Shown here one piece after another: positions 5,923 through 64,000 of a DNA stretch of 64,000 nucleotides. The first letter of the stretch is position 1, and every line of letters begins with the position of its first letter. The DNA lies in assembly GCA_002050125.1 (NCBI GenBank), contig MWTA01000063.1:1-64000 (forward strand), read 5' to 3'. The position numbers were made by a program, and so were the translations under genes. Origin of the DNA: Anaerolineae bacterium UTCFX2 (GTDB taxonomy: Bacteria > Chloroflexota > Anaerolineae > Anaerolineales > UBA4823). The notes under the pieces are model-generated. The model saw nothing but the letters and a program-made list of their open reading frames with translations. It was not told the origin of the DNA and ran no database searches.

Positions 5923-6924
5923 TCAATCTCCCAAAGTCGCAACCATGACCGCTTTAGCGGTGTGCACCCGGTTCTCCGACTGATCAAACACAATCGAGCG
6001 TTCCGATTCGAACACCTCTTCGGTGACCTCCATGTTTTCCAACCCGCTCTTCTGGTAGATTTCTTCCCCCACTTTGGTTTCTCGGTTGTGGAAAGCCGGC
6101 AGGCAGTGCATGAATTTGACCTTAGGATTGCCGGTTTTCTCAACTGCCTCCATATTCACTTGATACGGCTTGAGCAGTTTGATGCGTTCATCCCAAATCT
6201 CTTTCGCCTCGCCCATCGAGACCCACACATCGGTATAGAGGTAATCGGCGCCCTGAACGCCCTCATCCACGTTTTCCGTCAAGGTCAGACGGCTCCCCGT
6301 CGCGGCTGCGATTTCCTTACACGCGTTCACCAACCAGGTTTCGGGCCATAATGCCTTGGGAGCACACAGTCTCACGTCCATGCCCATCTTGCATCCCATC
6401 GCCATCAACGAGTTACCCATGTTGTTGCGCGCGTCGCCCAGATAGCAAAAGGCGATCTCGGACAGCGGCTTGTCGCTGTGCTCCACCATCGTCAGAACGT
6501 CGCACAGCGTCTGCGTGGGGTGGAATGCATCCGTAAGCCCGTTCCACACCGGCACCCCGGCGTACTGACCCAGCGCCTCGACCCTGTCCTGCCCAAAGCC
6601 GCGGTATTCGATCCCATCATACATACGCCCCAGCACACGCGCAGTATCTTTCATAGATTCTTTGTGACCGATCTGCGAGCCTGAAGATCCCAGGTAGGTC
6701 ACATTGGCTCCCTGGTCATAAGCCGCTACTTCGAAAGCGCAGCGCGTCCGCGTGGAGTCCTTCTCGAAGATCAAGACGATGTTCTTGCCTTTCAACCGTT
6801 GCTGCTCGTATCCGCCGTACTTTGCTGACTTGAGTTCTGCAGATAATTTTAGTAAAAACTTGAGTTCCTCGGGCGTAAAATCCAGCTCTTTGAGGAAATT
6901 GCGATTGCGTAAATTGAAAGCCAT
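5923..6924 (-). CDS. argF: Ornithine carbamoyltransferase
   Basis: This 333-residue enzyme makes citrulline from ornithine and carbamoyl phosphate in arginine biosynthesis, or runs in reverse in the arginine deiminase pathway. The carbamoyl-phosphate loop STRTR is at residues 57-61 and the ornithine-side HCLPAFH motif begins at residue 273. The length matches the family. The reverse-strand ATG follows a GGAAGAAAAAA-type purine stretch. No other arginine genes are nearby. The gene lies downstream of the long sugar operon with a gap of about 140 bases and may be transcribed separately. A catabolic ArcB role cannot be excluded, but no arcA or arcC is visible. Confidence 0.93.
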
Positions 6925-7065
6925 GATTTTTTCTTCCTTTTCTCCAGAACGGTTTTTTTATGAACGGGCTTTCATTTTACTACCGTGCTTTCCACATAGC
7001 CAGTTATTTGGCGTCCTGGGACTGGCTGAAAGAAATGCGCCTGGTTATCAGTCAAGATGAAGGGG

Positions 7066-31523: not shown

Positions 31524-32630
31524 ATGACCGAATTGACCAACCGCCAACGCTTCTTGCGCACTTTTACTGGTGAGGAAATTGATCACATCCCTTTTCTGGA
31601 TATTATGGGGTTTTGGGATTCCTGTCTGGATCGTTGGAAGACGGAGGGGTTAGCGCAGGATGCTGACGCCGCGACCGTGCGCAAGATCGTGGGATTTGAA
31701 GGAGGGCTGGGGGCTTTTCTCGAGATAAATTCATTTGTTTGGCCGGCGTTCGAACGAAAGGTCGTCCGCGAGGAAGGAGACAAGGTTTACACGCGCAACA
31801 GTTGGGGCGCGATTGAGATCCTGCTTGAGGATTCCGAATTTTTGCCGATTACAGTGGAAGGACCGGTAAGCGACCGAGAAAGCTGGGAGAAGCTAAAGGT
31901 GCGTTTGCAGCCCAATATGCCAGAGCGCTTGCCCGAGAATTGGGCATCCATGTGTGAGAAAGCGCGCCAGAGTGGAGACCCGGTTTATTCAGGCGAATTG
32001 CCCAATGGCTTTTTTGGCAGCGTGCGAGAGTTAATGGGTTTTGAACGCCAGGTCATGGTGTTTTATGACGACCCCGGTCTCATGGAAGATATGTTAGACA
32101 CGCTATGCGATTTGTGGATTGCCGTTTACACCCGCGTCATGCAAGATATTCAATTGGATTATTTCTATATCTGGGAAGACATGTGTTATAAGGGGGGACC
32201 ATTGATCAGCCCAGCCTTGTTTCGCCAATTCCTTTTGCCGCGTTACCAGCGCCTGTCAGAGGCGCTGCGCGCCAGCGGCTGCCCAAATATTTTCGTGGAC
32301 AGCGATGGCGACATGCGCAAGTTGGTTCCCCTATGGATCGAAGGCGGGGTGAACATAACCTTCCCCTGGGAGACACAGTTTGGATTGGACATTACCGAGG
32401 TCCGGCGTCAGTTCAAGACCCTGGGAATGATGGGCGGATTGAACAAATACGCTCTGCGAGCTGGGCGGTCGGCGATCGACAAAGAGTTAGAAAAGCTGCC
32501 ATTTATGCTGGAGCATGGATATTACATCCCTGGCTTGGACCACGGCGTTCCTGATGACGTGTCATGGGATGATTACCTCTATTTCTATGACCGGCTGCGC
32601 GAGCTGATCTGGCGTTACACAGCAAGGTGA
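31524..32630 (+). CDS. Uroporphyrinogen-decarboxylase-family protein (URO-D-like)
   Basis: The 368-residue protein has a URO-D-type TIM barrel: NRQRFLRTFTGEEIDHIPF at the start, a central W-E-D-M motif (YIWEDMCYKGGPLISPALF), then VDSDGDMRKLVPLWIEGGVN and MGGLNKYALRAG. This subgroup lacks the heme-pathway HemE context and resembles corrinoid- or methyltransferase-related URO-D proteins that are multiplied in anaerobes and sugar clusters. Its reaction is unknown. It diverges from deoR, so co-regulation with the sugar-phosphate module is likely. GGAGG lies 12 bases before the ATG. Confidence 0.8.
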   Translation: MTELTNRQRFLRTFTGEEIDHIPFLDIMGFWDSCLDRWKTEGLAQDADAATVRKIVGFEGGLGAFLEINSFVWPAFERKVVREEGDKVYTRNSWGAIEILLEDSEFLPITVEGPVSDRESWEKLKVRLQPNMPERLPENWASMCEKARQSGDPVYSGELPNGFFGSVRELMGFERQVMVFYDDPGLMEDMLDTLCDLWIAVYTRVMQDIQLDYFYIWEDMCYKGGPLISPALFRQFLLPRYQRLSEALRASGCPNIFVDSDGDMRKLVPLWIEGGVNITFPWETQFGLDITEVRRQFKTLGMMGGLNKYALRAGRSAIDKELEKLPFMLEHGYYIPGLDHGVPDDVSWDDYLYFYDRLRELIWRYTAR

Positions 32631-33029: not shown

Positions 33030-33833
33030 ATGGATACCTTCAAGCGAGACCTCGTCAAATCAGCCGCAAGATCGCTGGATATTCTGGAATATCTGGCGGA
33101 TTACCCCGGGGGCGCCAGCCTCACCGATCTGCACCAGCGCCTGCACATCCCCGTGAGCAGCCTGCATAATATCGTCATGACCATGGTAAATAAAGGCTTC
33201 CTGCTGCGTCAGGAGAGTTCCCTGATATACCACCTCGGTCCCAAGATTGGTCAGCTCGCCAATAGTTATTTTGAGCAGGTGGATTTGATCCAACTGGCTG
33301 ACCCATATATGTGTCGTTTAGCCCGCTTAACCGGTGAAACCACCAGCCTGACAGTGCTGCGCGGTAATCTGGTCGTTTTTATTCACAAGGTGAATGGCGA
33401 AAGCGCGCGGCAAATTGTCAATCCGGTTGGAACGATGTTGGCTGCACACGCCACCGGCGCTGGGAAAGCCATGCTGGCGTACTTACCCGAGAACGAACTT
33501 GACCGCTTGTATCCGCACGAAGATTTAGAAAGGTTTGCGTTAGCCACCATCACCTCAAAAAGCAAATTGAAAGAAAAACTCCAAGAAATCATCCGGGATG
33601 GATTCGCGTTTGACGAAGAAGAGTCAACACCGGGCATTTGGGCGGTCGCGGGCTGTATTCGCGACCGGCATGGCTTACCCGTGGCTTCGATCAGCATCGC
33701 GGGGCTGGTGGGGCACATCAAAACCAAGAATTATCCAGAGTGGTGTCAGCCCATCCGCGAAATGACCGCGGAGATGAGCACGGCTTTGGGCTTCCGCCCT
33801 ACCGGGCAAAAGGCTCTCGTTAGCACGACCTGA
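33030..33833 (+). CDS. IclR-family transcriptional regulator
   Basis: The 267-residue protein has an N-terminal winged helix (about residues 8-70; SLTDLHQRLHIPVSSLHNIV) and an IclR effector domain (about 80-255) with AHATGAGKAMLAYL and the GIWAVAGCIRDRHG segment. It lies 60 bases upstream of the flavoprotein and reads the same way as the whole heterocycle-type gene set (33893-45999), so it is its likely regulator. IclR ligands are usually small aromatic, keto or acid compounds. The start has AGGTAGG-like purines upstream. Confidence 0.9.
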   Translation: MDTFKRDLVKSAARSLDILEYLADYPGGASLTDLHQRLHIPVSSLHNIVMTMVNKGFLLRQESSLIYHLGPKIGQLANSYFEQVDLIQLADPYMCRLARLTGETTSLTVLRGNLVVFIHKVNGESARQIVNPVGTMLAAHATGAGKAMLAYLPENELDRLYPHEDLERFALATITSKSKLKEKLQEIIRDGFAFDEEESTPGIWAVAGCIRDRHGLPVASISIAGLVGHIKTKNYPEWCQPIREMTAEMSTALGFRPTGQKALVSTT

Positions 33834-36077: not shown

Positions 36078-36941
36078 ATGCTATACAGAAAATATGAAGT
36101 TGCCCAAACTCTGCCGGAGGCTTTGTCGCTGCTCAGTTCACACAATGGCGCGGTCGTTCGCCCCGTCGCTGGCGGCACTGACCTCATCCTGCAACTTCAT
36201 GAGCGCATTTTATCCGCAGATGTCCTGGTCGATATCAGTCGTGTGCCAGAACTGCGCGGCATCCGCCTCGAAAATGGGCAGCTGGTGATTGGCGCGGCAA
36301 CGACTTACACCGAGATCAGCCGTTCAGATCTGGTCTTGAAAAATGCATTCGTGCTGGCTGAAGCCAGCAAAAAGATCGGCGCGGTTCAGATCCAAAACAT
36401 GGCAACGCTGGGGGGCAACATCGGAAATGCCTCTCCCGCGGCAGACGCTATCCCAGGTCTGTACGCCCTGCAGGCTGATGTGGTTGTGTGCGGACCCAAC
36501 GCAGAGCGGCGGATCCCCATTACCGAATTTCATCAGGGTTATCGCAAAATCGATCTAAACCCTGGCGAATTGATTAAGGAGATTCGATTTGCGATCCCCG
36601 CCGAAGGAACTGGCACCGCTTTCTATAAATACGCCCTGCGAAAGAGCCAGGCAATCTCGGTGGTCGACGCGGCGGTCTGCGTACAGCTAAGCGATGGGGT
36701 GATAAAACACGCCACCGTCGCGCTGGGCGCCGTGGCGCCCACCATTATCCGCAGCCCGGCAGCCGAAAGCGTACTGATTGGGGAACCGCCCTCCGAAGAC
36801 CTGTTTGACCGGGCGGCGGAAGCGGCTTGCCAAGATGCGCGTCCAATTGATGACATTCGTGGCAGCGCAGCCTTTAGAAAATATCTTGTGGGGGTATGCA
36901 CTTCCCACGCTGTTAGATCAGCGTGCGAGCGCGCCGCCTGA
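36078..36941 (+). CDS. Molybdenum hydroxylase FAD subunit (CoxM/NdhF type)
   Basis: The 287-residue protein has the FAD-binding fold of the xanthine-dehydrogenase family medium subunit. VRPVAGGTDLILQL (residues about 30-43) and TLGGNIGNASPAADAIPGL (about 112-130) match the two FAD-phosphate loops. A CO-dehydrogenase flavoprotein C-terminal domain follows. It passes electrons from the Fe-S subunit to NAD or another acceptor. GAGGAG lies before the ATG. It is the first of four adjacent genes that together make one complete hydroxylase. Confidence 0.92.
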   Translation: MLYRKYEVAQTLPEALSLLSSHNGAVVRPVAGGTDLILQLHERILSADVLVDISRVPELRGIRLENGQLVIGAATTYTEISRSDLVLKNAFVLAEASKKIGAVQIQNMATLGGNIGNASPAADAIPGLYALQADVVVCGPNAERRIPITEFHQGYRKIDLNPGELIKEIRFAIPAEGTGTAFYKYALRKSQAISVVDAAVCVQLSDGVIKHATVALGAVAPTIIRSPAAESVLIGEPPSEDLFDRAAEAACQDARPIDDIRGSAAFRKYLVGVCTSHAVRSACERAA

Positions 36942-36959
36942 TTGCACACGGAGTATTCT

Positions 36960-37478
36960 ATGGATGAAAACAACTTGATTAAGATGGAATTGACGGTTAA
37001 TGGCGAAGCGGTCTCCATGATTGTCAAAGGAGGCCGCCGTCTCTTAGATTTTCTGCGGGATGATCTGCATCTCACCGGCACCAAAGAAGGCTGCGGAGAA
37101 GGGGAATGTGGCTCTTGCACCGTTCACCTGGACGGTCAGAGTGTGTTAGCCTGCCTGACGCCGATGGAGCGCGCGATTGGCTGCTCCGTACTGACTATTG
37201 AAGGGGTCGGCAGCCCCACCAACCTGCACCCGGTCCAAGCCGCGCTGCTCGATGAGGGCGGAGTGCAATGCGGGATGTGCACCCCAGGAATGGTGATGTC
37301 GGCGCTTGACCTGCTTGAACGCAACCCTGACCCAACGATCGAAGAAATTATTGAGGGAATCTCCGGCAACCTGTGCCGCTGCACGGGGTATAAGAAAATC
37401 ATCTACGGCATTCAGCAGGCAGCCCAGGAACTGCAAGCTGCCAGCCCAGCGGGGACGGTAAAGGAGTCGGTCGAATGA
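36960..37478 (+). CDS. Molybdenum hydroxylase [2Fe-2S] subunit (CoxS/NdhS type)
   Basis: This 172-residue small subunit carries two [2Fe-2S] clusters. The plant-type cluster is GCGEGECGSC plus a later Cys, and the alpha-helical cluster is CGMCTPG and CRCTGY. The ATG is chosen because CGGAG lies six bases upstream. A TTG six codons earlier has no site. It overlaps the next gene by four bases (ATGA). It relays electrons from the molybdenum centre to FAD. Confidence 0.93.
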   Translation: MDENNLIKMELTVNGEAVSMIVKGGRRLLDFLRDDLHLTGTKEGCGEGECGSCTVHLDGQSVLACLTPMERAIGCSVLTIEGVGSPTNLHPVQAALLDEGGVQCGMCTPGMVMSALDLLERNPDPTIEEIIEGISGNLCRCTGYKKIIYGIQQAAQELQAASPAGTVKESVE

Positions 37479-38830
37479 CTATCCTGAACGAGACATTGCA
37501 AGAGGAAGAACTCAAAATCCAGACGCCGTCGATCTCGCGCAAAGATGAGTACGAATCGGTCGGTAAGTCGGTGCTGCGTAAAGATTCCGTCCCGAAGGTG
37601 ACCGGAAAGGCGATCTATACCGGCGATCTGCACATGCCCGGGATGTTATTCGGGAAAGTGTTGTTGAGCACGCAGGCGCATGCCTTGATTAAGAGCATCG
37701 ATGTGTCGGCTGCCGCCGCAGTCCCGGGCGTCAAAGCGGTGTTGACCTCCAGAGATATCCCCGGAGAAAACGCTTTTGGGATCGCCATCCCCGATCAGCA
37801 AGTGCTGGCTGAAACCAAGGTGCGCTATATCGGAGAGCCGGTGGCAATTGTAGCGGCGGAGGATATTTTCGCCGCTGAACAAGCTATTAGCCAGATTCAA
37901 GTGGAATATGAACCCTTACCAGCGGTCTTTAGCCCGTTCGATGCGCTTAAACCCGGCGCGCCTGCGGTTCACGCGAAGGGCAATATCCTCTACCACACAA
38001 AGGTCCGCAAGGGCAATATCGAGCGAGGGTTCGATGAGGCCGCGATCATCGTCGAGAATATTTATCGCACCTCCGGGCAGGATCATGCGCCAATCGAGCC
38101 CGAAGCCGGCTTTGCCTGGATCGACGCCGAAGGCGTTTTGAACGTTTTTTCCGGCACGCAATACGCGTTTCGAGACCGGCGGCAGATCGCCATCGCGCTC
38201 AATCTGCCAATGAACCGGGTGCGCGTCGCCAATATGACCATGGGCGGGGGTTTTGGACGCAAGGATGACGTCACCGCGGAGATCCTGGTGGCTCTGCTTG
38301 CCTGGAAGACCGGTCGCCCGGTGCGTCTGGTCTATTCCCGCCATGAAGCCATGATGAGCCAAACCCACCGCCACCCCACCTATACGCGCGTGCGCACTGG
38401 CGCCAACAAGGAAGGCAAGTTGACTGCGATGGAAGGGGTCATTTATGGCGATACCGGCGCATACGCTTCGCTTGGGCTTTTTGTGATCAAAAAGATGGCT
38501 CTGCATCTTGGAGGCCCTTATTATTATCCAAACTACAAATCAGACAGTTTCTCGGTTTACACCAACAACCCCATCTTTGGCGCATTCCGGGGCTTTGGCG
38601 TTTTGCAAGCGGCGGTCTCCCATGAAGGTCAAATCGATGAACTGGCTGAAAAACTGGGAATGGACCCAATAGAATTTCGGTTGAGGAACTGCCTGCGACC
38701 TGGATTGAGTTTTTCGACCGGGCAGTTGATGACCAACGCCTGCGGCATCGCCACAACGCTGGAGCGGCTGCAGGATTACCTGGTTGAAAACGGATTGAGT
38801 ATCGAACTCCACCCGGAGGTATCGGCATGA
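37475..38830 (+). CDS. Molybdenum hydroxylase large subunit, N-terminal half (NdhL-like)
   Basis: This 451-residue protein is the first part of a xanthine-dehydrogenase-family molybdopterin subunit. A small alpha/beta domain (VTGKAIYTGDLHMPG, about residues 40-150) precedes the first molybdopterin half with MTMGGGFGRKDD and FGAFRGFGVLQA. It ends where a full-length subunit would continue, and the next gene supplies the rest through an ATGA overlap. The size (about 49 kDa) and break point resemble NdhL of Eubacterium barkeri nicotinate dehydrogenase. Because both halves are intact and coupled, this is taken as a natural split rather than a frameshift. Confidence 0.9.
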   Translation: MTILNETLQEEELKIQTPSISRKDEYESVGKSVLRKDSVPKVTGKAIYTGDLHMPGMLFGKVLLSTQAHALIKSIDVSAAAAVPGVKAVLTSRDIPGENAFGIAIPDQQVLAETKVRYIGEPVAIVAAEDIFAAEQAISQIQVEYEPLPAVFSPFDALKPGAPAVHAKGNILYHTKVRKGNIERGFDEAAIIVENIYRTSGQDHAPIEPEAGFAWIDAEGVLNVFSGTQYAFRDRRQIAIALNLPMNRVRVANMTMGGGFGRKDDVTAEILVALLAWKTGRPVRLVYSRHEAMMSQTHRHPTYTRVRTGANKEGKLTAMEGVIYGDTGAYASLGLFVIKKMALHLGGPYYYPNYKSDSFSVYTNNPIFGAFRGFGVLQAAVSHEGQIDELAEKLGMDPIEFRLRNCLRPGLSFSTGQLMTNACGIATTLERLQDYLVENGLSIELHPEVSA

Positions 38831-39861
38831 AACTGCGTGGAATAGGTGTTGGATCAATGATGTACGGGTTGGGTTATGGTTTTGCTCGACCGGACTTTTC
38901 GACGACCGATATCGAGCTGGCGCCCGATGGGACCGTAACGATTTGGAATGGCGCGAGCGAACTGGGTCAAGGTTTGCAGACTTTGCTCTGTCAGCTAGTC
39001 GCGGAAGAGCTGGGCATCCCGTATGAAGACACTTTTATCATCACCGCCGACACCGGGCGCACCCCCGATGCTGGACCGGTTTCCGCCAGCCGTTCGACTT
39101 ACGTGCAAGGAAATTCAGCCTTGAAGGCTTGTCGCGATCTCAAAAAGCCGATGGCAGAGCTGGCGGGCGAACTCTTAAAGACCGACCCTGACCAACTGAT
39201 CTTCAAGAAAGGGTTGGTGCAGGATCAAAACGAACCCAGCCGTTCGATCAGCTTTACCAACCTTGCAGGAGGAATGCACCAGCGCGGCCGGCGTGTAAGA
39301 GGCAGCGGTTATCACAGCATCACCACCGGGGATGTTGACAAAGAGACTTCCCAGGGCGATGCGTATGCCACCTATGCCTGGGCAAGCCAGCTCGCTGAGG
39401 TGGAGGTGGATACCGAAACAGGACAGGTGACAGTTTTGCGCCTTGCCTCCGCCACGGATGCCGGCAAAGCCATCAACCCCAAGATGGTAGAAGGGCAAAT
39501 TGAAGGCGGCGCGGTGCAGGGGCTAGGATTTGCGCTCATGGAAGATATGAAAATCGAACAAGGGGAGTTCAAGAACGCAAAACTGAGCACCTACCTCATC
39601 CCCACGGCAGCCGATGTGCCAATGGTTGAACCTCTGATCGTGGAGGTGTACGACCCCACTGGCCCATATGGTGCGAAAGGCGTTGCCGAACCCGCCACAA
39701 TCCCCACTGCGCCGACCATTTTCAATGCTATTGCCAATGCGCTTGGGCAACGTGTGCGCTTCACCCCAGCCACGCCCGAGAAAATGCTGAAGTTGCTTGG
39801 AAAGCTAGAGGAGAAGGAGGAACAAATAACAATTGAAGATATGCCATACCCAGAACCATAG
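38827..39861 (+). CDS. Molybdenum hydroxylase large subunit, C-terminal half (NdhM-like)
   Basis: The 344-residue protein completes the molybdopterin subunit. It has an ASELGQGLQT molybdopterin-binding motif (residues about 43-52), a TGDVDKETSQGDAYATYAW segment, and GAKGVAEPATIP with E288 as the expected active-site Glu base. It overlaps the N-terminal half by four bases. Its size is close to NdhM (37 kDa) of the four-subunit nicotinate dehydrogenase. The hydroxylated substrate is probably an N-heterocycle, but purines, pyridines and others cannot be told apart here. Confidence 0.9.
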   Translation: MKLRGIGVGSMMYGLGYGFARPDFSTTDIELAPDGTVTIWNGASELGQGLQTLLCQLVAEELGIPYEDTFIITADTGRTPDAGPVSASRSTYVQGNSALKACRDLKKPMAELAGELLKTDPDQLIFKKGLVQDQNEPSRSISFTNLAGGMHQRGRRVRGSGYHSITTGDVDKETSQGDAYATYAWASQLAEVEVDTETGQVTVLRLASATDAGKAINPKMVEGQIEGGAVQGLGFALMEDMKIEQGEFKNAKLSTYLIPTAADVPMVEPLIVEVYDPTGPYGAKGVAEPATIPTAPTIFNAIANALGQRVRFTPATPEKMLKLLGKLEEKEEQITIEDMPYPEP

Positions 39862-39913: not shown

Positions 39914-41161
39914 ATGATGAAGAACTGGAAGTTGATTATTTCAATGTTGGCGTTGATCGCGGTTCTCGCAACCGCCTGCGCCGCCCCCGCCACGCCTGCG
40001 CCGCAGCAACCCCAGGCGCCAGCCGCGGCAGAGACTCAAGCGCCGGCTCAGCCAGAGACCAAAGAACCGATCAGGATCGGGGTGGTAGAGCCCCTCACCG
40101 GCCCGGTGGCGGATTCCGGCACGTATGTGACCAATGGCGTCAAGATTGCTGTCGATCGCATCAACGCTAATGGCGGCGTTTGTGGTCGTCCGCTTGAGGT
40201 GGTTATCGAAGACGGTAAAAACGACCCGCAAGAATCTGCCAACGCCGCCGAATTGCTGATCACCCGCGACAAAGTGCCGATTATCATGGGCGCCTGGGGC
40301 AGTTCGTCGTCCCTGGCAGTCATGCCGGTGATGGAAAAGCACAAAGTGCCGTTCCTGGTCGAGACCTCCAGCTCCGGTAAGATCAGCGACCCGGCTACGC
40401 CTGGTTTCCAATACACTTATCGGATCAGCCCAATGAGTAAAATGGAAGCCGACGCTTCGCAGAATTATATCGTTGATAAGCTCGGCTTGAATAGCGTCGC
40501 CATCCTGAGCGTGAACAATGACTGGGGACGCGGCGCGGCAGCAGTTTTCAAAGAGGCTATTGAGGCGCACGGCGGAAAGGTTATCAGCGAGTACTTTGTC
40601 GAACAGTCTGCAACGGATGTCCTCCCGCAGTTGACAGAAATCAAGAACTCTGACGCTGATTCGATCTTGATCACCACCAGCGCCGGACAGATCGCCACCA
40701 TGCTGAAGCAGTACCATGAACTGGGGATGACGCAGACCGTTCTCACCACAGGCGGTTCGAACTACCCGATGGCGATCATGGCTCTTTCTAGCAAAGAGAT
40801 CGTTGAAGGAACGTACCACCTGGTCTTCTATGTCCCCCAACGGTTTGACCTGGCGGCGGATCCTGACCTCGCGGAATGGTATTTAAACGAATATACCAAG
40901 CGCGGACTGCCGGATATTGGCATCGGCGAATCCTACCGTGGCTTTGATGGAATGCATGTCATTGCACAGGCGATCGAGAAGGCGGGATGCGTGGTTGAGC
41001 CCGAAGCCATTCGCGCCGCGATGTCTCAGGTCGAATTTAAAGGCTTGAGCGGGGTCGTGAAGTTCGCCGAGGCAGAAGGGCATCAGAGCCGTCCGAACGT
41101 CTACCTGGTACAGATGGTAGATGGACAGATGGTCGTGCCAGAATTTCAGTTCGAGAAGTAA
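39914..41161 (+). CDS. Branched-chain amino acid-type ABC transporter substrate-binding lipoprotein
   Basis: The 415-residue protein has a signal peptide with lipobox LATAC (Cys at about 22) and a Pro/Gln/Ala-rich linker (about 23-50). A Leu/Ile/Val-binding-type periplasmic fold follows (RIGVVEPLTGPVADSG onwards). Such HAAT-family binding proteins take amino acids, amides, urea, aromatic acids and heterocycles. It follows the molybdenum hydroxylase genes by 52 bases, so the ligand is plausibly the hydroxylase substrate. Two adjacent ATGs are possible starts, with AGGAAGAAGGA upstream. Confidence 0.93.
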   Translation: MMKNWKLIISMLALIAVLATACAAPATPAPQQPQAPAAAETQAPAQPETKEPIRIGVVEPLTGPVADSGTYVTNGVKIAVDRINANGGVCGRPLEVVIEDGKNDPQESANAAELLITRDKVPIIMGAWGSSSSLAVMPVMEKHKVPFLVETSSSGKISDPATPGFQYTYRISPMSKMEADASQNYIVDKLGLNSVAILSVNNDWGRGAAAVFKEAIEAHGGKVISEYFVEQSATDVLPQLTEIKNSDADSILITTSAGQIATMLKQYHELGMTQTVLTTGGSNYPMAIMALSSKEIVEGTYHLVFYVPQRFDLAADPDLAEWYLNEYTKRGLPDIGIGESYRGFDGMHVIAQAIEKAGCVVEPEAIRAAMSQVEFKGLSGVVKFAEAEGHQSRPNVYLVQMVDGQMVVPEFQFEK

Positions 41162-41180: not shown

Positions 41181-41210
41181 GGGATGCGGATGCTCATCCG
41201 CATCCCTTTT
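41181..41210 (+). terminator. Hairpin with T-run between binding protein and permease genes
   Basis: GGGATGCGGATG (41181-41192) and CATCCGCATCCC (41195-41206) are perfectly complementary and are followed by TTTT. It looks like an intrinsic terminator. It sits 20 bases after the binding-protein stop and before the permease genes, so it probably gives partial termination and excess binding protein. Confidence 0.7.
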
Positions 41211-41231
41211 ATACGAACTGGGAGAACCGTA

Positions 41232-42104
41232 ATGGCTGAATTTCTTCAGCATTTGCTCAATGGTTTGATGATTGGAGGGATCTACGCCCTGATGGGGATT
41301 GGTCTCACTCTGATCTTTGGGATTATGAATGTGGTCAATTTCGCCCATGGTGAATTCTATATGCTTGGAGCGTTTGGCGTACTGACCCTGTTCACGTTCA
41401 TGGGCGTGCCCTATGTGCTGTCTCTGGCACTTACAGCGTTGTTTTTCTTCTTCTTTGGGGGGGTTATCCAGCGTCTGATCCTGCACCCCTTACGAAACCA
41501 GTCCGTAGAAGTGCCTATGCTGGCAACAATCGGTTTATCCATCTTCCTGGCTAACATGGCTTTGATTATCTGGGATCCAACCCCCAAGGATATCGGGCTG
41601 CCGTTTCCTCTAAAAGCCGTTCAATTAGGTCCGATCAGTCTCACGCCAATCCGGGTTTTTGTTTTTTTTACGGCACTGGGCTTAATTGTCGCCTCGCATC
41701 TGTTTTTGAAACATACAACGCTTGGCACCGCCATTCGGGCCACTTTTCAGGACCGTGAAGCGGCTGCGTTGATGGGCATCAATACCAATCTGATAAATAT
41801 GGTGACTTTCGCCTGGGGCACCGCGCTTGCGGCTGTTGCTGGCGGATTGCTTGGACCGATTTTTCAGGTTTTTCCAACCATGGGCGCTGCCACCAGTTCA
41901 AAATCCTTTGCTGTAGTGATCGCTGGGGGACTGGGGAACTTCCCTGGCGCGATTCTAGCAGGTTTGCTCTTGGGAATTGCTGAAAGCCTGGGCGCAGGCT
42001 ATATCTCCTCCGGTTATCGAGACGCGATTGCCTTTATTATGATTATTGTCGTCTTGATCTTCCGACCTACGGGGCTGTTGGGCAAGTCAAGGCGGCTCGG
42101 ATGA
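41232..42104 (+). CDS. Branched-chain amino acid-type ABC permease (LivH type)
   Basis: The 290-residue integral membrane protein has about eight hydrophobic helices and the family motifs GIYALMGIGLTLIFGIMNVVNFAHGEFYMLGA near the N-terminus and GGLGNFPGAILAGLLLG near the C-terminus. GGAG lies eight bases before the chosen ATG. An upstream in-frame start would put the hairpin inside the gene. It overlaps the LivM-LivG fusion gene by four bases. It forms half of the membrane channel. Confidence 0.93.
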   Translation: MAEFLQHLLNGLMIGGIYALMGIGLTLIFGIMNVVNFAHGEFYMLGAFGVLTLFTFMGVPYVLSLALTALFFFFFGGVIQRLILHPLRNQSVEVPMLATIGLSIFLANMALIIWDPTPKDIGLPFPLKAVQLGPISLTPIRVFVFFTALGLIVASHLFLKHTTLGTAIRATFQDREAAALMGINTNLINMVTFAWGTALAAVAGGLLGPIFQVFPTMGAATSSKSFAVVIAGGLGNFPGAILAGLLLGIAESLGAGYISSGYRDAIAFIMIIVVLIFRPTGLLGKSRRLG

Positions 42105-43991
42105 AGCGAACCAATTTATTGCCCATACTTGTTATTGTAGCGTTCCTGGCGGTACTCCTGGCGCTGCCCAATCTGCTGTCCAACGAATATTATCTTCGCC
42201 TGGCAATCATGTCTGGTCTTTTCATCCTGCTGGCTTCGGCGCATAACATTCTGATGAAAGTAGGTCAGCTCTCCCTTGGTCCCGTGGCTTTTTACGGTTT
42301 AGGGGCTTACGTTTCGGCGATCCTGAGTGTGCGCTATCACACACCATTTCTACTTGCCTTTCTAGCCGCGGGAGTGATAACGGCTGCAGTAGGATGGGTG
42401 ATCGGGAAATTGACCCTTAAACTGCGGACAGCGTATTTTGTCCTGGTGACAATTGGCTTTGCTGAATTCTTCCGCCTGGTCGCCATAAACTGGACCGATA
42501 TGACAAACGGTCCAATGGGTATCACCGCGGTGCCTGCGCCAGCGTCCTGGTTTGTGGGCTACCGACCTTACTATTACTTCATTCTGCTTCTGGTGGTGCT
42601 GGTGCTTGCAGCCCTTTACCGGATCGAGCATTCCACCATTGGGCGGGCGATGCACGCCATCCGGGAGAACGAGACATTAGGGCGATCGGTCGGCATCGAC
42701 AGCTATCGTTACATGATGTTTGCGGCGGTTCTCAGCTCGTTTATCATCGGCTTGTCGGGAAGTTTTTACGCCCACTTCTTTCAGTTCGTTGGACCCGAAC
42801 TGCTCAGCTTTGACCTCACTATCGCCATTGTGATTATGGTGATCGCCGGCGGGCGCAGCACGCTCGCGGGACCGGTCATCGGGGCGATCTTGTTCACAAT
42901 CATCCCAGAGTTGCTGCGCGCGGCTTCATCCTATCGAATGGTCATTTATGGGGCTTTGCTGGTATTGCTGATGCTTTTTATGCCGGATGGCATTCTGCCG
43001 GCGGTGATGACCCTGCTGCGCCGGATAATCGCGCTAGTCAGCCCCGCTCTTCAGAGATTGGCAACTTCATTGACGGGCAAGCCGTTTGCGCTTCCTCAAC
43101 CTGTTGAAAGTGCGCCGGCTCTCGCGAATGCAGCAGCCACTATGGATGCGCCTCGCGCGCTTACCAGCTTGACCTCTAAAGACGATGGCGGTTTGACCGC
43201 ACCGAATAAGGATAAGCTCGAAGGACAAAAAGAGCTCATTCGCGTGGAAGATCTGAGTGTTCACTTCGGCGGGATCCACGCGGTTGAGCGCCTGTCATTC
43301 AGCGTTGAACAGGGCGAGATTTTCGCGATTATTGGGCCCAATGGAGCCGGAAAAACCACTCTGCTCAATGCGATCACCCGCCTGGGACCGATTACCTCTG
43401 GGACGATAACCTTTCAGGGCGAGACGCTCAATTCGCTTCAGGCGCACGATGTTGCCAGGCGCAGGCTCGTGCGCACCTTCCAGCACACCAGCGTATTTCC
43501 TCATGTAACAACCAACCGCAACCTGGTGTTGGCGCATAATCTACGTGAGCCAGCCGGTTTGCTGCCCAACTTACTGCGCACACGCCACTACCGCGCCTCT
43601 GAAGTAGACTGCCGTATCCGCGCCAAAGAGGTACTGGCTTTCTTGAAACTGGAACATCATGCCGATACTCAAGCCAACAGCCTTCCTTATGGGAATCAAC
43701 GCTTGTTGGAACTGGGCATTGCCATGATGACCAACCCTAGTGTGCTGCTTCTCGACGAACCGGCAGCCGGGATGAACTCCACAGAAGTTGAAATGCTGAT
43801 GGATTTAATCCTGTCCATCAGAGACATGGGCGTCACGGTGATCCTGGTGGAGCACGACATGAAGCTCGTCATGGGCATTTCAGAGCGAATCCTGGTTTTG
43901 AACTATGGAAAACGGATCGCCATGGGACACCCGGATGAAATCCGCCAGAATGAAGATGTGATCACTGCTTATCTTGGGAGGCGGGCTGCCG

Positions 43992-44008
<17 letters not shown>
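42101..44008 (+). CDS. Fused ABC permease-ATPase (LivM-LivG)
   Basis: This 635-residue fusion carries a LivM-type permease in residues 1-315 (about nine helices, with GRSTLAGPVIGAIL near 265). A variable 60-residue Ala/Pro/Leu linker follows, and then a LivG-type ATPase from about 375. The Walker A is GPNGAGKTT, the signature region reads LPYGNQRLLELG (normal for LivG, which lacks LSGGQ), the Walker B is LLLDEPAAGMN, and the switch His lies in VEHDMK. The usual two genes are joined without any stop. The ATPase LivF follows and overlaps it. The fusion fixes a one-to-one ratio of permease to ATPase. Confidence 0.93.
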
Positions 44009-44696
<688 letters not shown>

Positions 44697-44724: not shown

Positions 44725-45999
44725 ATGAATCCGCATCCAGAGGCAGTTCTTGCTTCCATCGATCAGCGCCGCGCTGAGATCGTTGCGTTTCTGCAAAAAC
44801 TGATCAGCTACCAAAGCGTAACTGGTCAGGAAGGGGAAATCCAGGCTTTTGCCGCCGGCTACATGAAGGAACTCGGTTTAGACGTGGATGTCTTCGAGCC
44901 GGACGTGGATCGTTTGCGCAGTTACCCTGGTTTTCTCGAACCTGAACTGCCTTTTGCTGGGCGCCCCAACGTGGTGGGCGTTTGGAAAGGCTCCGGCGGC
45001 GGGCGTTCGCTTTTGCTCAACGGTCATGTGGACACCGTTCCGCTGGAACCGCTGAGCGAATGGGAAACAGGACCGCTGGCTGGGGAAATCGTCGAGGGGA
45101 AGATCGTCGGGCGCGGGGCTTCAGATATGAAATCCGGCGTGGCGGCGATGACCATGGCGGTCCAGATTCTCAAGCAGATGGGTGTACAGTTAAAGGGTGA
45201 CGTGATCCTGGAATATGTGGTGGACGAAGAACGCACCGGTCTCGGCACCCTGGCGTGCGTCGAGCGCGGCTACACCGCCGATGCGGGTATCTGCTGCGAG
45301 ACGAGCGATCTGGAAGTGATGCCGGCTTGTATTGGCAGGATGTGGTTCACGGTGAAGCTCAAGGGCAAACCCACCGGCATCGCCACCCGCTGGGAGGGGG
45401 TAAGCTCGATCGAGAAGGCTTATAAGATCATCCAGGCGGTGGAAGACTTGGAGAAGATCCGCATCCAGGATTTGCATCACCCCCTCTATCCGGACAACCG
45501 CGGCGCGCTGCCCTGCGCGGTGACGATGATCCACGCCGGCACTTTCCCGAGCACCGCCCCCGAGGATGCAGTGCTGCGCGGCAGCCTGGGGTTGATGCCT
45601 TATGAAGATCCCGAGGACGCCAAACAACAGTTAATTGACCAGATTGACCTGGTGTGCAAAGCCGATCCCTGGCTGCGCGATCACCCGCCCTTCATCACCA
45701 CCGAAGGCGGTTATGTCGCCGCAGGGGCGGAAATCCCGCGCGATCACCCCATCGTTCAGACGATGCAAGCCAACTTCCAAAGCGTAACCGGACGGCTGCC
45801 GGTGATCAGCGGCAGGATGGGCGCGGCGGACACGCGCTTCTTAACCCGCAGCGGGCACACCCCCACCGTGATCTTTGGTCCCGGTGTGACCGCCCAGATG
45901 CACGCCATGAACGAGAACGTGCCCATCGATCACTTGATCACCGCCACGAAAGTGATCGCGTTAACGATTTTGAACTGGTGTAATTCAGACAAAGACTGA
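44725..45999 (+). CDS. M20-family amidohydrolase/deacylase (ArgE/DapE type)
   Basis: The 424-residue zinc peptidase-family protein has NGHVDTVP (first zinc ligand and catalytic Asp), GRGASDMKSG (bridging Asp), DEE near residue 172 (catalytic Glu and zinc Glu), and a dimerisation domain in the middle. M20 enzymes hydrolyse N-acyl, N-carbamoyl or N-formyl amino acids. It is the last gene of the transporter operon, 28 bases after LivF. It may open or deacylate the linear amide formed from the imported compound, by inference. AAGGAG lies 11 bases before the ATG. Confidence 0.88.
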   Translation: MNPHPEAVLASIDQRRAEIVAFLQKLISYQSVTGQEGEIQAFAAGYMKELGLDVDVFEPDVDRLRSYPGFLEPELPFAGRPNVVGVWKGSGGGRSLLLNGHVDTVPLEPLSEWETGPLAGEIVEGKIVGRGASDMKSGVAAMTMAVQILKQMGVQLKGDVILEYVVDEERTGLGTLACVERGYTADAGICCETSDLEVMPACIGRMWFTVKLKGKPTGIATRWEGVSSIEKAYKIIQAVEDLEKIRIQDLHHPLYPDNRGALPCAVTMIHAGTFPSTAPEDAVLRGSLGLMPYEDPEDAKQQLIDQIDLVCKADPWLRDHPPFITTEGGYVAAGAEIPRDHPIVQTMQANFQSVTGRLPVISGRMGAADTRFLTRSGHTPTVIFGPGVTAQMHAMNENVPIDHLITATKVIALTILNWCNSDKD

Positions 46000-63301: not shown

Positions 63302-63895
63302 CTACGGTTGCCGCGCCGGTAGTTCCCGCAGATAATCCTGGGGGGTATCCAGGTCACGTAAAATCGAATCGTCCTCAACCGGCAGATACTCGATCAGCTC
63401 TTGCTGCTCCTCGAGAAAATCCCTCAGCGTGGCTGGCGGGTTGATCGCCAAAATCTGAGGCCACAACGATCGATCGACCAGCCAGGGATGTCCGCGCCGC
63501 CGGTTATAGCTGGGCACAACGATTGGTGAGCGGCGTGTGTAAAACGCATCGATAACGCGTTCGACAACCAGCCGCTGAATCTGCGGTTGGTCCCCCAGGA
63601 CAATTAGAGCCCCCCGGCTATTCTCGTCCAGGCTTAATAGACCTGCCTTCACTGAGGAGAGCATCTCCCCATTCGCATAATCGGGGTTGTGCTCAAACCG
63701 CACCGGCTTTCCAACTAACAAATCCTTTAGAGATTCGCGGTTTGCTCCGGTAACCAGGATGATTTCTCCTATCTGGGTATTTTCCAGCGTGGATATTACC
63801 TGCCCGAGCACCGTCGTATTCCCCCAGGGCAGCGCTAACTTCGGTTGACCCATCCGCACGGACAAACCGGCAGCAAGCACAATCGCCGAGATCAA
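63302..63895 (-). CDS. MocA/MobA-like nucleotidyltransferase (molybdenum cofactor cytidylyltransferase type)
   Basis: The 197-residue protein has the nucleotide-binding start IVLAAGLSVRMGQPKLALPWG, VTGANRES and VLGDQPQI with the metal-binding Asp. It matches the MocA subgroup that makes molybdopterin cytosine dinucleotide for xanthine-dehydrogenase-family enzymes, which would suit the hydroxylase at 36078-39861. The start is TTG with GAGG seven bases upstream, overlapping the stop of the upstream gene by four bases. Confidence 0.87.
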   Translation of the reverse strand: MISAIVLAAGLSVRMGQPKLALPWGNTTVLGQVISTLENTQIGEIILVTGANRESLKDLLVGKPVRFEHNPDYANGEMLSSVKAGLLSLDENSRGALIVLGDQPQIQRLVVERVIDAFYTRRSPIVVPSYNRRRGHPWLVDRSLWPQILAINPPATLRDFLEEQQELIEYLPVEDDSILRDLDTPQDYLRELPARQP

Positions 63896-64000
63896 TCTTC
63901 AACCTCGCGGTGTGAATTGAGCAGCGCAGCGTAGTCGGCGGGTGTATCGATATCCTGCAGGTCGTAGGGGTCATTCCAGGGCAGCCAGGTTGGGGTGAAA
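63892..64000 (-). CDS. C-terminal end of a second MobA/MocA-like nucleotidyltransferase (cut by window edge)
   Basis: The reverse frame is open from the window edge to a TGA at 63892-63894. The visible tail contains LQDIDTPADYAALLNSH, which matches the DIDTPEDY ending of MobA-like enzymes, including the neighbouring protein (DLDTPQDYL). It overlaps the start of the downstream gene by four bases, so a tandem coupled pair is inferred. Nothing more can be said from 35 residues. Confidence 0.65.
   Translation of the reverse strand, partial: FTPTWLPWNDPYDLQDIDTPADYAALLNSHREVED

Follow-up and report, generated by a model that had tools for sequence, protein, structure and literature searches.

A four-subunit molybdenum hydroxylase with a molybdopterin chain encoded in two genes in an Anaerolineae bacterium, and the operon that surrounds it

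Nicotinate dehydrogenases mostly consist of three subunits, but the enzyme of Eubacterium barkeri has four, according to a passage of PMC10331938. As section 3.3 of PMC5746545 describes it, the molybdopterin-binding domain of the E. barkeri enzyme is split into the subunits L and M, its molybdenum bears selenium, and Tyr13 of M has been modelled as binding the ring nitrogen. A locus of similar layout lies at positions 36,078 to 39,861 of a 64,000-nucleotide stretch of DNA (hereafter the window) from Anaerolineae bacterium UTCFX2 (GCA_002050125.1, contig MWTA01000063.1). An initial annotation had regarded it as a natural split of the large subunit in an enzyme of the nicotinate dehydrogenase type. 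We have asked how far this comparison holds.

The four genes of the locus, F, S, L and M, encode the subunits of a molybdenum hydroxylase that belongs to the xanthine oxidase family and whose molybdopterin chain is encoded as two proteins (Table 1). FAD_binding_5, Fer2 with Fer2_2, Ald_Xan_dh_C, MoCoBD_1 and MoCoBD_2 each score above the Pfam cut-off, which places the enzyme in this family. The active-site glutamate of the family lies in the second half, as had been noted: position 288 of M is Glu in all 111 aligned rows, split and fused. L and M are joined by an ATGA overlap, the S/L junction overlaps likewise, and a ribosome-binding site (GGAGG) is found 7 nt 5' of the ATG of M; for S, the list of open reading frames (ORFs) also gives an earlier TTG start at 36942. 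By sequence search, the closest chains of known structure for L and M are those of the E. barkeri enzyme (NdhFSLM, 3hrd), with 4-hydroxybenzoyl-CoA reductase far behind (1rm6_A, E 1.4e-63 for L and 3.4e-43 for M). The latter and the xanthine dehydrogenases, which are three-subunit enzymes, have the domains and the catalytic Glu in common with the window enzyme, but their molybdopterin chain is in one piece and their match scores are lower. Residue 1 of M aligns to residue 1 of 3hrd_B, so the break point is identical to that of the E. barkeri enzyme, which also shares the set of subunits, Tyr13 of M and the catalytic Glu. Identity is 43 % for L and 43 % for M, and the sizes are alike as well (287, 172, 451 and 344 residues for F, S, L and M, against 296, 164, 425 and 330 in E. 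barkeri).

To place the two halves among their relatives, three aligned M proteins were used to scan one genome per species, and the best 80 of 357 loci were kept, that of E. barkeri (L100) included (loci, genomes and contigs are cited by our L, G and C numbers). L/M pairs were built from these loci and from those of the window's family, and yielded a concatenated tree of 111 rows, 46 of them split and 65 fused. Pairing dropped L025, L029, L047, L058, L060 and L094 (contig without the L half), L129 (no pair) and rows identical to earlier ones; the tree further omits L010 (the same gene as L056) and L027 (incomplete L half), and the residue columns also omit L050.

On this tree the window falls into a clade of 16 rows, all split, with a support of 100 in the Shimodaira-Hasegawa-like approximate likelihood ratio test (SH-aLRT). 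L165, from genome G056, was added afterwards, joins the clade and is split too, which makes 17 of 17 rows with the window included. ATGA stands at the junction in seven of the 16 rows, and a second genome of the same genus has an identical four-gene set (83-88 % identity) with the identical L/M overlap. In L063, on a chromosome titled Dehalococcoidia, L and M even lie about 1 kb apart (5957-6995), and the two ORFs between them match no Pfam family. Conservation among relatives and the phylogeny of the concatenated halves thus bear out that the large subunit is naturally encoded by two genes. Among the 38 genomes of the window's family a close M occurs only in the same-genus genome (88 %), the next by E-value being 41 % identical and in a fused frame. 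The family also contains the split L/M enzymes L045 and L046 (G027 and G017; 448 + 342 and 447 + 333 residues), which form another clade apart from that of the window.

The split label changes seven times on the 111-row tree, at least five of these changes being forced by well-supported branches, and five times (at least three) on a set of 49 rows. This smaller set, which was used for approximately unbiased (AU) tests, was picked by hand from 114 rows (the 113 paired rows and L165); the groups were named once the first tree was in view, the trees are quick ones and their deep branches are weak. A single clade for all 32 split rows of the set was rejected (AU p 8e-13). As judged from these trees, a split molybdopterin chain recurs in several separate clades, through either repeated splitting at one domain boundary or re-fusion, between which the change counts do not distinguish. 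Since it recurs in this way, the split alone indicates neither nicotinate nor selenium.

The proposed likeness to nicotinate dehydrogenase stands for the subunit set, the sizes, the break point and Tyr13, which is Tyr in all 17 rows of the window's clade and in 7/7 nicotinate dehydrogenase rows, but it does not extend to a common clade. The two enzymes belong to separate clades, and a tree constrained to unite the window's clade with five nicotinate dehydrogenase rows was rejected (AU p 0.0013, 49-row set), as it was after the addition of three more rows, one of them fused (AU p 0.009). Four columns of L also differ between the 17 rows of the window's clade and the seven of the nicotinate dehydrogenase clade: L203 is Asp in all 17 versus Thr (four) or Ser (three), L262 is Arg (14) or Gly (three) versus Gly in all seven, L264 is Asp (16) or Glu (one) versus Leu in all seven, and L340 is Lys in all 17 versus Arg in all seven. 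By comparison with xanthine dehydrogenase, these positions presumably lie near the molybdenum pocket. The surroundings differ as well. The E. barkeri genes are flanked by Fer4, ApbE, NAD_binding_2, PTS_EIIC_2, Amidohydro_1, B12-binding and PrpF proteins (seven of the ten neighbouring ORFs scanned), and none of the ten non-Ndh ORFs shown for that locus matches any of the 61 window ORFs at 1e-6. The B12-domain protein of E. barkeri, which we take to be 2-methyleneglutarate mutase, gave only matches of the size of the B12 domain in the 83 %-complete genome of the window. A nicotinate pathway was rejected on these two grounds.

Selenium was considered separately. The genes selD, yqeB and yqeC together are given in PMC2276186 as the selenium-dependent molybdenum hydroxylase trait, and the part of PMC11448449 that concerns a yqeB deletion in Clostridioides difficile reports that the growth benefit of uric acid was lost and that of xanthine severely diminished. 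All three genes are present in the genome of the window (2.9 Mb). selD scores above its cut-off (L173:3015-4010, on contig C97 of genome G000) and has an in-frame TGA within an N-terminal SNCAG-U-ASK stretch. This TGA, at what would be the Cys/Sec position of selD, probably encodes selenocysteine, which suggests that the genome makes use of this amino acid. yqeB lies just outside the window (family match 65342-66127, TIGR03309 above cut-off), and on this contig yqeB and yqeC follow M at a distance of about 24-25 kb. However, the search for selenium-insertion genes called for by the initial annotation gave a mixed answer, as they do not co-occur with the clade of the enzyme. In a tally of 40 genomes, yqeB was found in only two of the 16 other genomes with an enzyme of the window's clade (the same-genus genome and that of L071), no completeness being given for these 16, and three of the negative records are titled chromosome 1 (L063, L068 and L069). 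In comparison, it is present in 7/7 genomes of the nicotinate dehydrogenase clade, in all four tested of a nine-row Moorella-type clade and in six of 13 others. XdhC-type genes, which serve in sulfur insertion, were found in 12 of the 14 genomes tested; G438 and the genome of L062 gave neither an XdhC nor a yqeB match. The window clade's enzyme evidently occurs without selenium genes, and selenium as a trait of this clade was rejected. Within the window's family yqeB is found in 33 of 38 genomes, and a fused hydroxylase at C101:67403-69655, one gene away from yqeB, is a likelier client of the selenium genes than the window enzyme. Another molybdenum hydroxylase cluster of the window's genome (L170, C83:5000-22000), with a fused molybdenum subunit of 1013 residues, an ORF of 1085 residues and an XdhC-type gene, is reminiscent of purine/selenium clusters.

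The hydroxylase genes are embedded in a run of twelve genes on one strand, from an IclR-type regulator gene to that of an M20 hydrolase, with a largest gap of 59 nt (Table 1). Base composition carries no signal of recent transfer in either direction (GC 0.553 in the operon, 0.550 in the remainder of the window).

Table 1. Genes of the operon and cofactor-related genes at the end of the window
Feature	Coordinates	Strand	Basis
IclR-type regulator, probable operon regulator	33030..33833	+	Pfam HTH_IclR and IclR_C
SdhA/fumarate-reductase-like flavoprotein, 593 aa	33893..35674	+	FAD_binding_2 and Succ_DH_flav_C; best PDB match 7d6v_A
Solitary SdhB-type [2Fe-2S] protein, 121 aa	35678..36043	+	Fer2_3 above cut-off; second half of SdhB missing
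F, molybdenum hydroxylase FAD subunit, 287 aa	36078..36941	+	Pfam FAD_binding_5 and CO_deh_flav_C
S, two-[2Fe-2S] subunit, 172 aa	36960..37478	+	Pfam Fer2 and Fer2_2
L, molybdopterin chain, N-terminal half, 451 aa	37475..38830	+	Ald_Xan_dh_C and MoCoBD_1; 3hrd_A, E 1.9e-104
M, molybdopterin chain, C-terminal half, with Tyr13 and catalytic Glu288, 344 aa	38827..39861	+	MoCoBD_2 alone; 3hrd_B, E 7.4e-77
Periplasmic substrate-binding protein, Liv/HAAT type	39914..41161	+	Peripla_BP_6
LivH-type permease	41184..42104	+	60-89 % identical proteins in matching operons L057, L058, L059 and L165
Probable fused LivM permease and LivG ATPase, 635 aa	42101..44008	+	Comparison with matching operons
Probable LivF-type ATPase, start codon perhaps further downstream	43974..44696	+	64-84 % identical proteins in matching operons
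M20-family amidohydrolase/deacylase	44725..45999	+	Peptidase_M20; ArgE/DapE family TIGR01910 above cut-off
MocA-type molybdenum cofactor cytidylyltransferase	63302..63895	-	TIGR03310, 164.5 bits, below cut-off 186.45
yqeC-mocA fusion gene, 3' end	63892..64000, on to contig position 65307	-	TIGR03172 above, TIGR03310 below cut-off

The SdhA-like flavoprotein keeps the FAD_binding_2 fold and the HYTxGG, HGANR and RD motifs of SdhA, FrdA and TfrA, and is a probable reductase or dehydrogenase of ring C=C bonds. Unlike SdhB, the partner of those proteins, the small protein encoded next to it has a [2Fe-2S] domain only and matches residues 6-106 of the 238-residue SdhB chain 1nek_B. Both genes stand beside molybdenum hydroxylase genes in L059, L167 and L165 as well. 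In the same-genus contig L168 an IclR gene with 72 % identity directly precedes that of the SdhA-like protein. The permease that follows the binding protein is presumably LivH, as judged from its position, and the fused LivM-LivG is a single protein in L057, L058 and L059 too and two separate proteins in L165. Upstream of the operon, at 31524-32630, there is a protein of the uroporphyrinogen-decarboxylase fold with weak similarity to the MtaA/CmuA methyltransferases; it was not seen 5' of the operon in L168.

The combination of SdhA-like gene, hydroxylase and Liv transporter recurs in four other genomes of the Chloroflexota and Acidobacteriota (the same-genus genome, G438, G439 and G056), these phylum names being taken from the titles of records (L057, Anaerolineales; L058, Acidobacteria) and from the grouping of the genome set. 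The Fer2_3 protein was seen in G438, G439 and G056; in the same-genus genome IclR-SdhA and F-S-L-M-transporter-M20 are on separate contigs, and Fer2_3 would fall in the unseen break. L059 gives the order YcsF-SdhA-Fer2_3-F-S-L-M-BP-LivH-LivMG-LivF on a single contig (BP, binding protein), G438 has the same order spread over two contigs with a partial YcsF (69 % identical), and that of G056 is F-S-L-M-M24-SdhA-Fer2_3-LivH-LivM-LivG-LivF-BP. Amide-bond hydrolases of three unrelated families adjoin the core: M20 in the window and L057, LamB/YcsF in L059 and L167, and M24 in L165. A further member of the clade, L062, has an M20 gene (56 % identical) 3' of L-M-F-S, accompanied by a pyridoxal-phosphate (PLP) enzyme and, one gene away as in L165, by a protein with DHO_dh and 4Fe-4S domains, for which the best NCBIfam model is dihydropyrimidine dehydrogenase PreA, below its cut-off. 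Other members keep different company, with a CoA transferase, a luciferase-like protein and PLP enzymes in L075 and a DUF6282 protein in L064-L071 (the copy of L071 being incomplete). A second pair of SdhA-like and short Fer2_3 proteins (51 % and 41 %) is found in G056 (L166, contig C24), among genes for an arylmalonate-decarboxylase-fold protein, a corrinoid protein, an MtmB-like methyltransferase, a DUF6282 protein and a Liv-type transporter.

A spread of the operon over three phyla was considered and dropped, as L059, titled 'Woeseiaceae', shares a class in the grouping of the genome set with G438, titled Acidobacteria, and G440, titled Vicinamibacteria. The title of the genome of L059 and L060 (NZSH01 records), which contains one full and one partial copy of the M gene region, is probably wrong. 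Even sampling of 400 genomes across the window's phylum, which did not include the same-genus genome, gave a close M (E <= 1e-85) in at least two, G056 and the genome of the window; at E <= 1e-100, the class of G439 gave M in at least three genomes among 193 (G438, G439 and G440), and the phylum of G438 in at least one among 396, namely G438. All of these counts are lower bounds, the best five or ten candidates per genome having been scored.

What the operon does can be proposed from its gene content. Our best reading, to which we give about an even chance, is the uptake of an N-heterocycle followed by hydroxylation beside the ring nitrogen, ring reduction and amide hydrolysis. The Liv-type transporter would import a small N-heterocycle, or a similar planar acid or amide. 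F-S-L-M would then place a water-derived oxygen onto the carbon adjoining the ring nitrogen to give a lactam, with Tyr13 of M holding this nitrogen, Glu288 of M as the base, and S or Se as molybdenum ligand according to the host; electrons would pass from molybdenum through the two [2Fe-2S] clusters to FAD. The SdhA-like flavoprotein and its [2Fe-2S] partner would reduce (or desaturate) the ring, and the M20 hydrolase would open the amide bond. An N-heterocycle that is turned into a lactam, reduced and opened is suggested because C-N hydrolases and ring reductases repeatedly accompany the enzyme. The fermentation of nicotinate begins in the same manner, with a hydroxylase, a reductase and an amidohydrolase, but the later enzymes are unrelated. 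Since the window enzyme occupies a different branch and is accompanied by uptake and processing genes of its own, its substrate is probably a ring compound different from that of the nicotinate enzyme. It is also conceivable, though quite unlikely, that the hydroxylase and the SdhA-like/[2Fe-2S] pair form one electron-coupled unit, in which the second flavin would hand the electrons withdrawn from the substrate at molybdenum back to the product, the net result being a redox-neutral hydration and ring reduction of the N-heterocycle without external cofactor.

A number of observations weigh against the N-heterocycle pathway. Tyr13 is also Tyr in 23 of the 65 fused rows and is thus not diagnostic, and a PDB search with the binding protein gave no ligand-specific match, so that it provides no clue to the ligand. 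In the SdhA-like protein the FHP motif reads FYP, so that its His is missing, as is the His at the position where FAD is usually bound covalently, and for this reason its chemistry may not be ene reduction. The neighbourhoods of the enzyme in the more distant clade members L061-L071, L074 and L075 gave no SdhA-like, Fer2_3 or Liv genes at the cut-offs used, so that the clade as a whole does not share them. In G056 the SdhA-like protein of the operon is only 35 % identical to that of the window, a closer one (51 %) being encoded elsewhere in the genome, and M20 was not seen in L059 nor in the examined part of G056; several of the neighbourhoods compared are on short contigs.

The strongest competitor, which we still consider rather unlikely, is a substrate that is not a heterocycle, such as an aldehyde or a CoA- or acid-bound aromatic, with the SdhA-like pair simply passing electrons on to quinone or some other acceptor. 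The two halves of the chain do score well against models of xanthine dehydrogenase and 4-hydroxybenzoyl-CoA reductase, all below their cut-offs, and an SdhB-type [2Fe-2S] protein is by family an electron carrier. However, this alternative is at odds with Tyr13, with nicotinate dehydrogenase as the best PDB match by sequence and with the amide-bond hydrolases that are repeatedly found nearby, and the F subunit already constitutes an electron outlet. It is very doubtful that the window encodes a genuine E. barkeri-type nicotinate dehydrogenase, with labile selenium and a role in nicotinate breakdown: the four subunits, the break point, the identity of both halves, Tyr13 and the selenium-cofactor genes of the genome would fit, but the separate clade, the four L columns, the neighbouring genes and the absence of yqeB from 14 of the 16 other genomes of the clade do not. 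That a fused gene was broken by a frameshift or by misassembly, fused homologues being common in the tree, is refuted by the clade-wide split, the overlap that recurs in the same-genus genome and at other junctions, the ribosome-binding site of M and the gap between L and M in L063, and has next to no chance of being correct.

In the open-licence literature searched, no description of the operon was found by title or abstract start. A split molybdopterin chain of the xanthine oxidase type is a recurring gene arrangement and no mark of nicotinate dehydrogenase or of selenium. Architecture alone is insufficient for naming such genes nicotinate dehydrogenase. In sponge-symbiont Chloroflexi, part of the COG1529 proteins have been assigned to nicotinate via KEGG orthology, according to a passage of PMC8941161, and our comparison suggests caution over KEGG-based nicotinate names for these proteins. 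At the same time, a molybdenum hydroxylase, an SdhA-like flavoprotein and a lone [2Fe-2S] protein are linked in a rare operon, for which the order of uptake, hydroxylation, ring reduction and ring opening proposed here would be a testable pathway.

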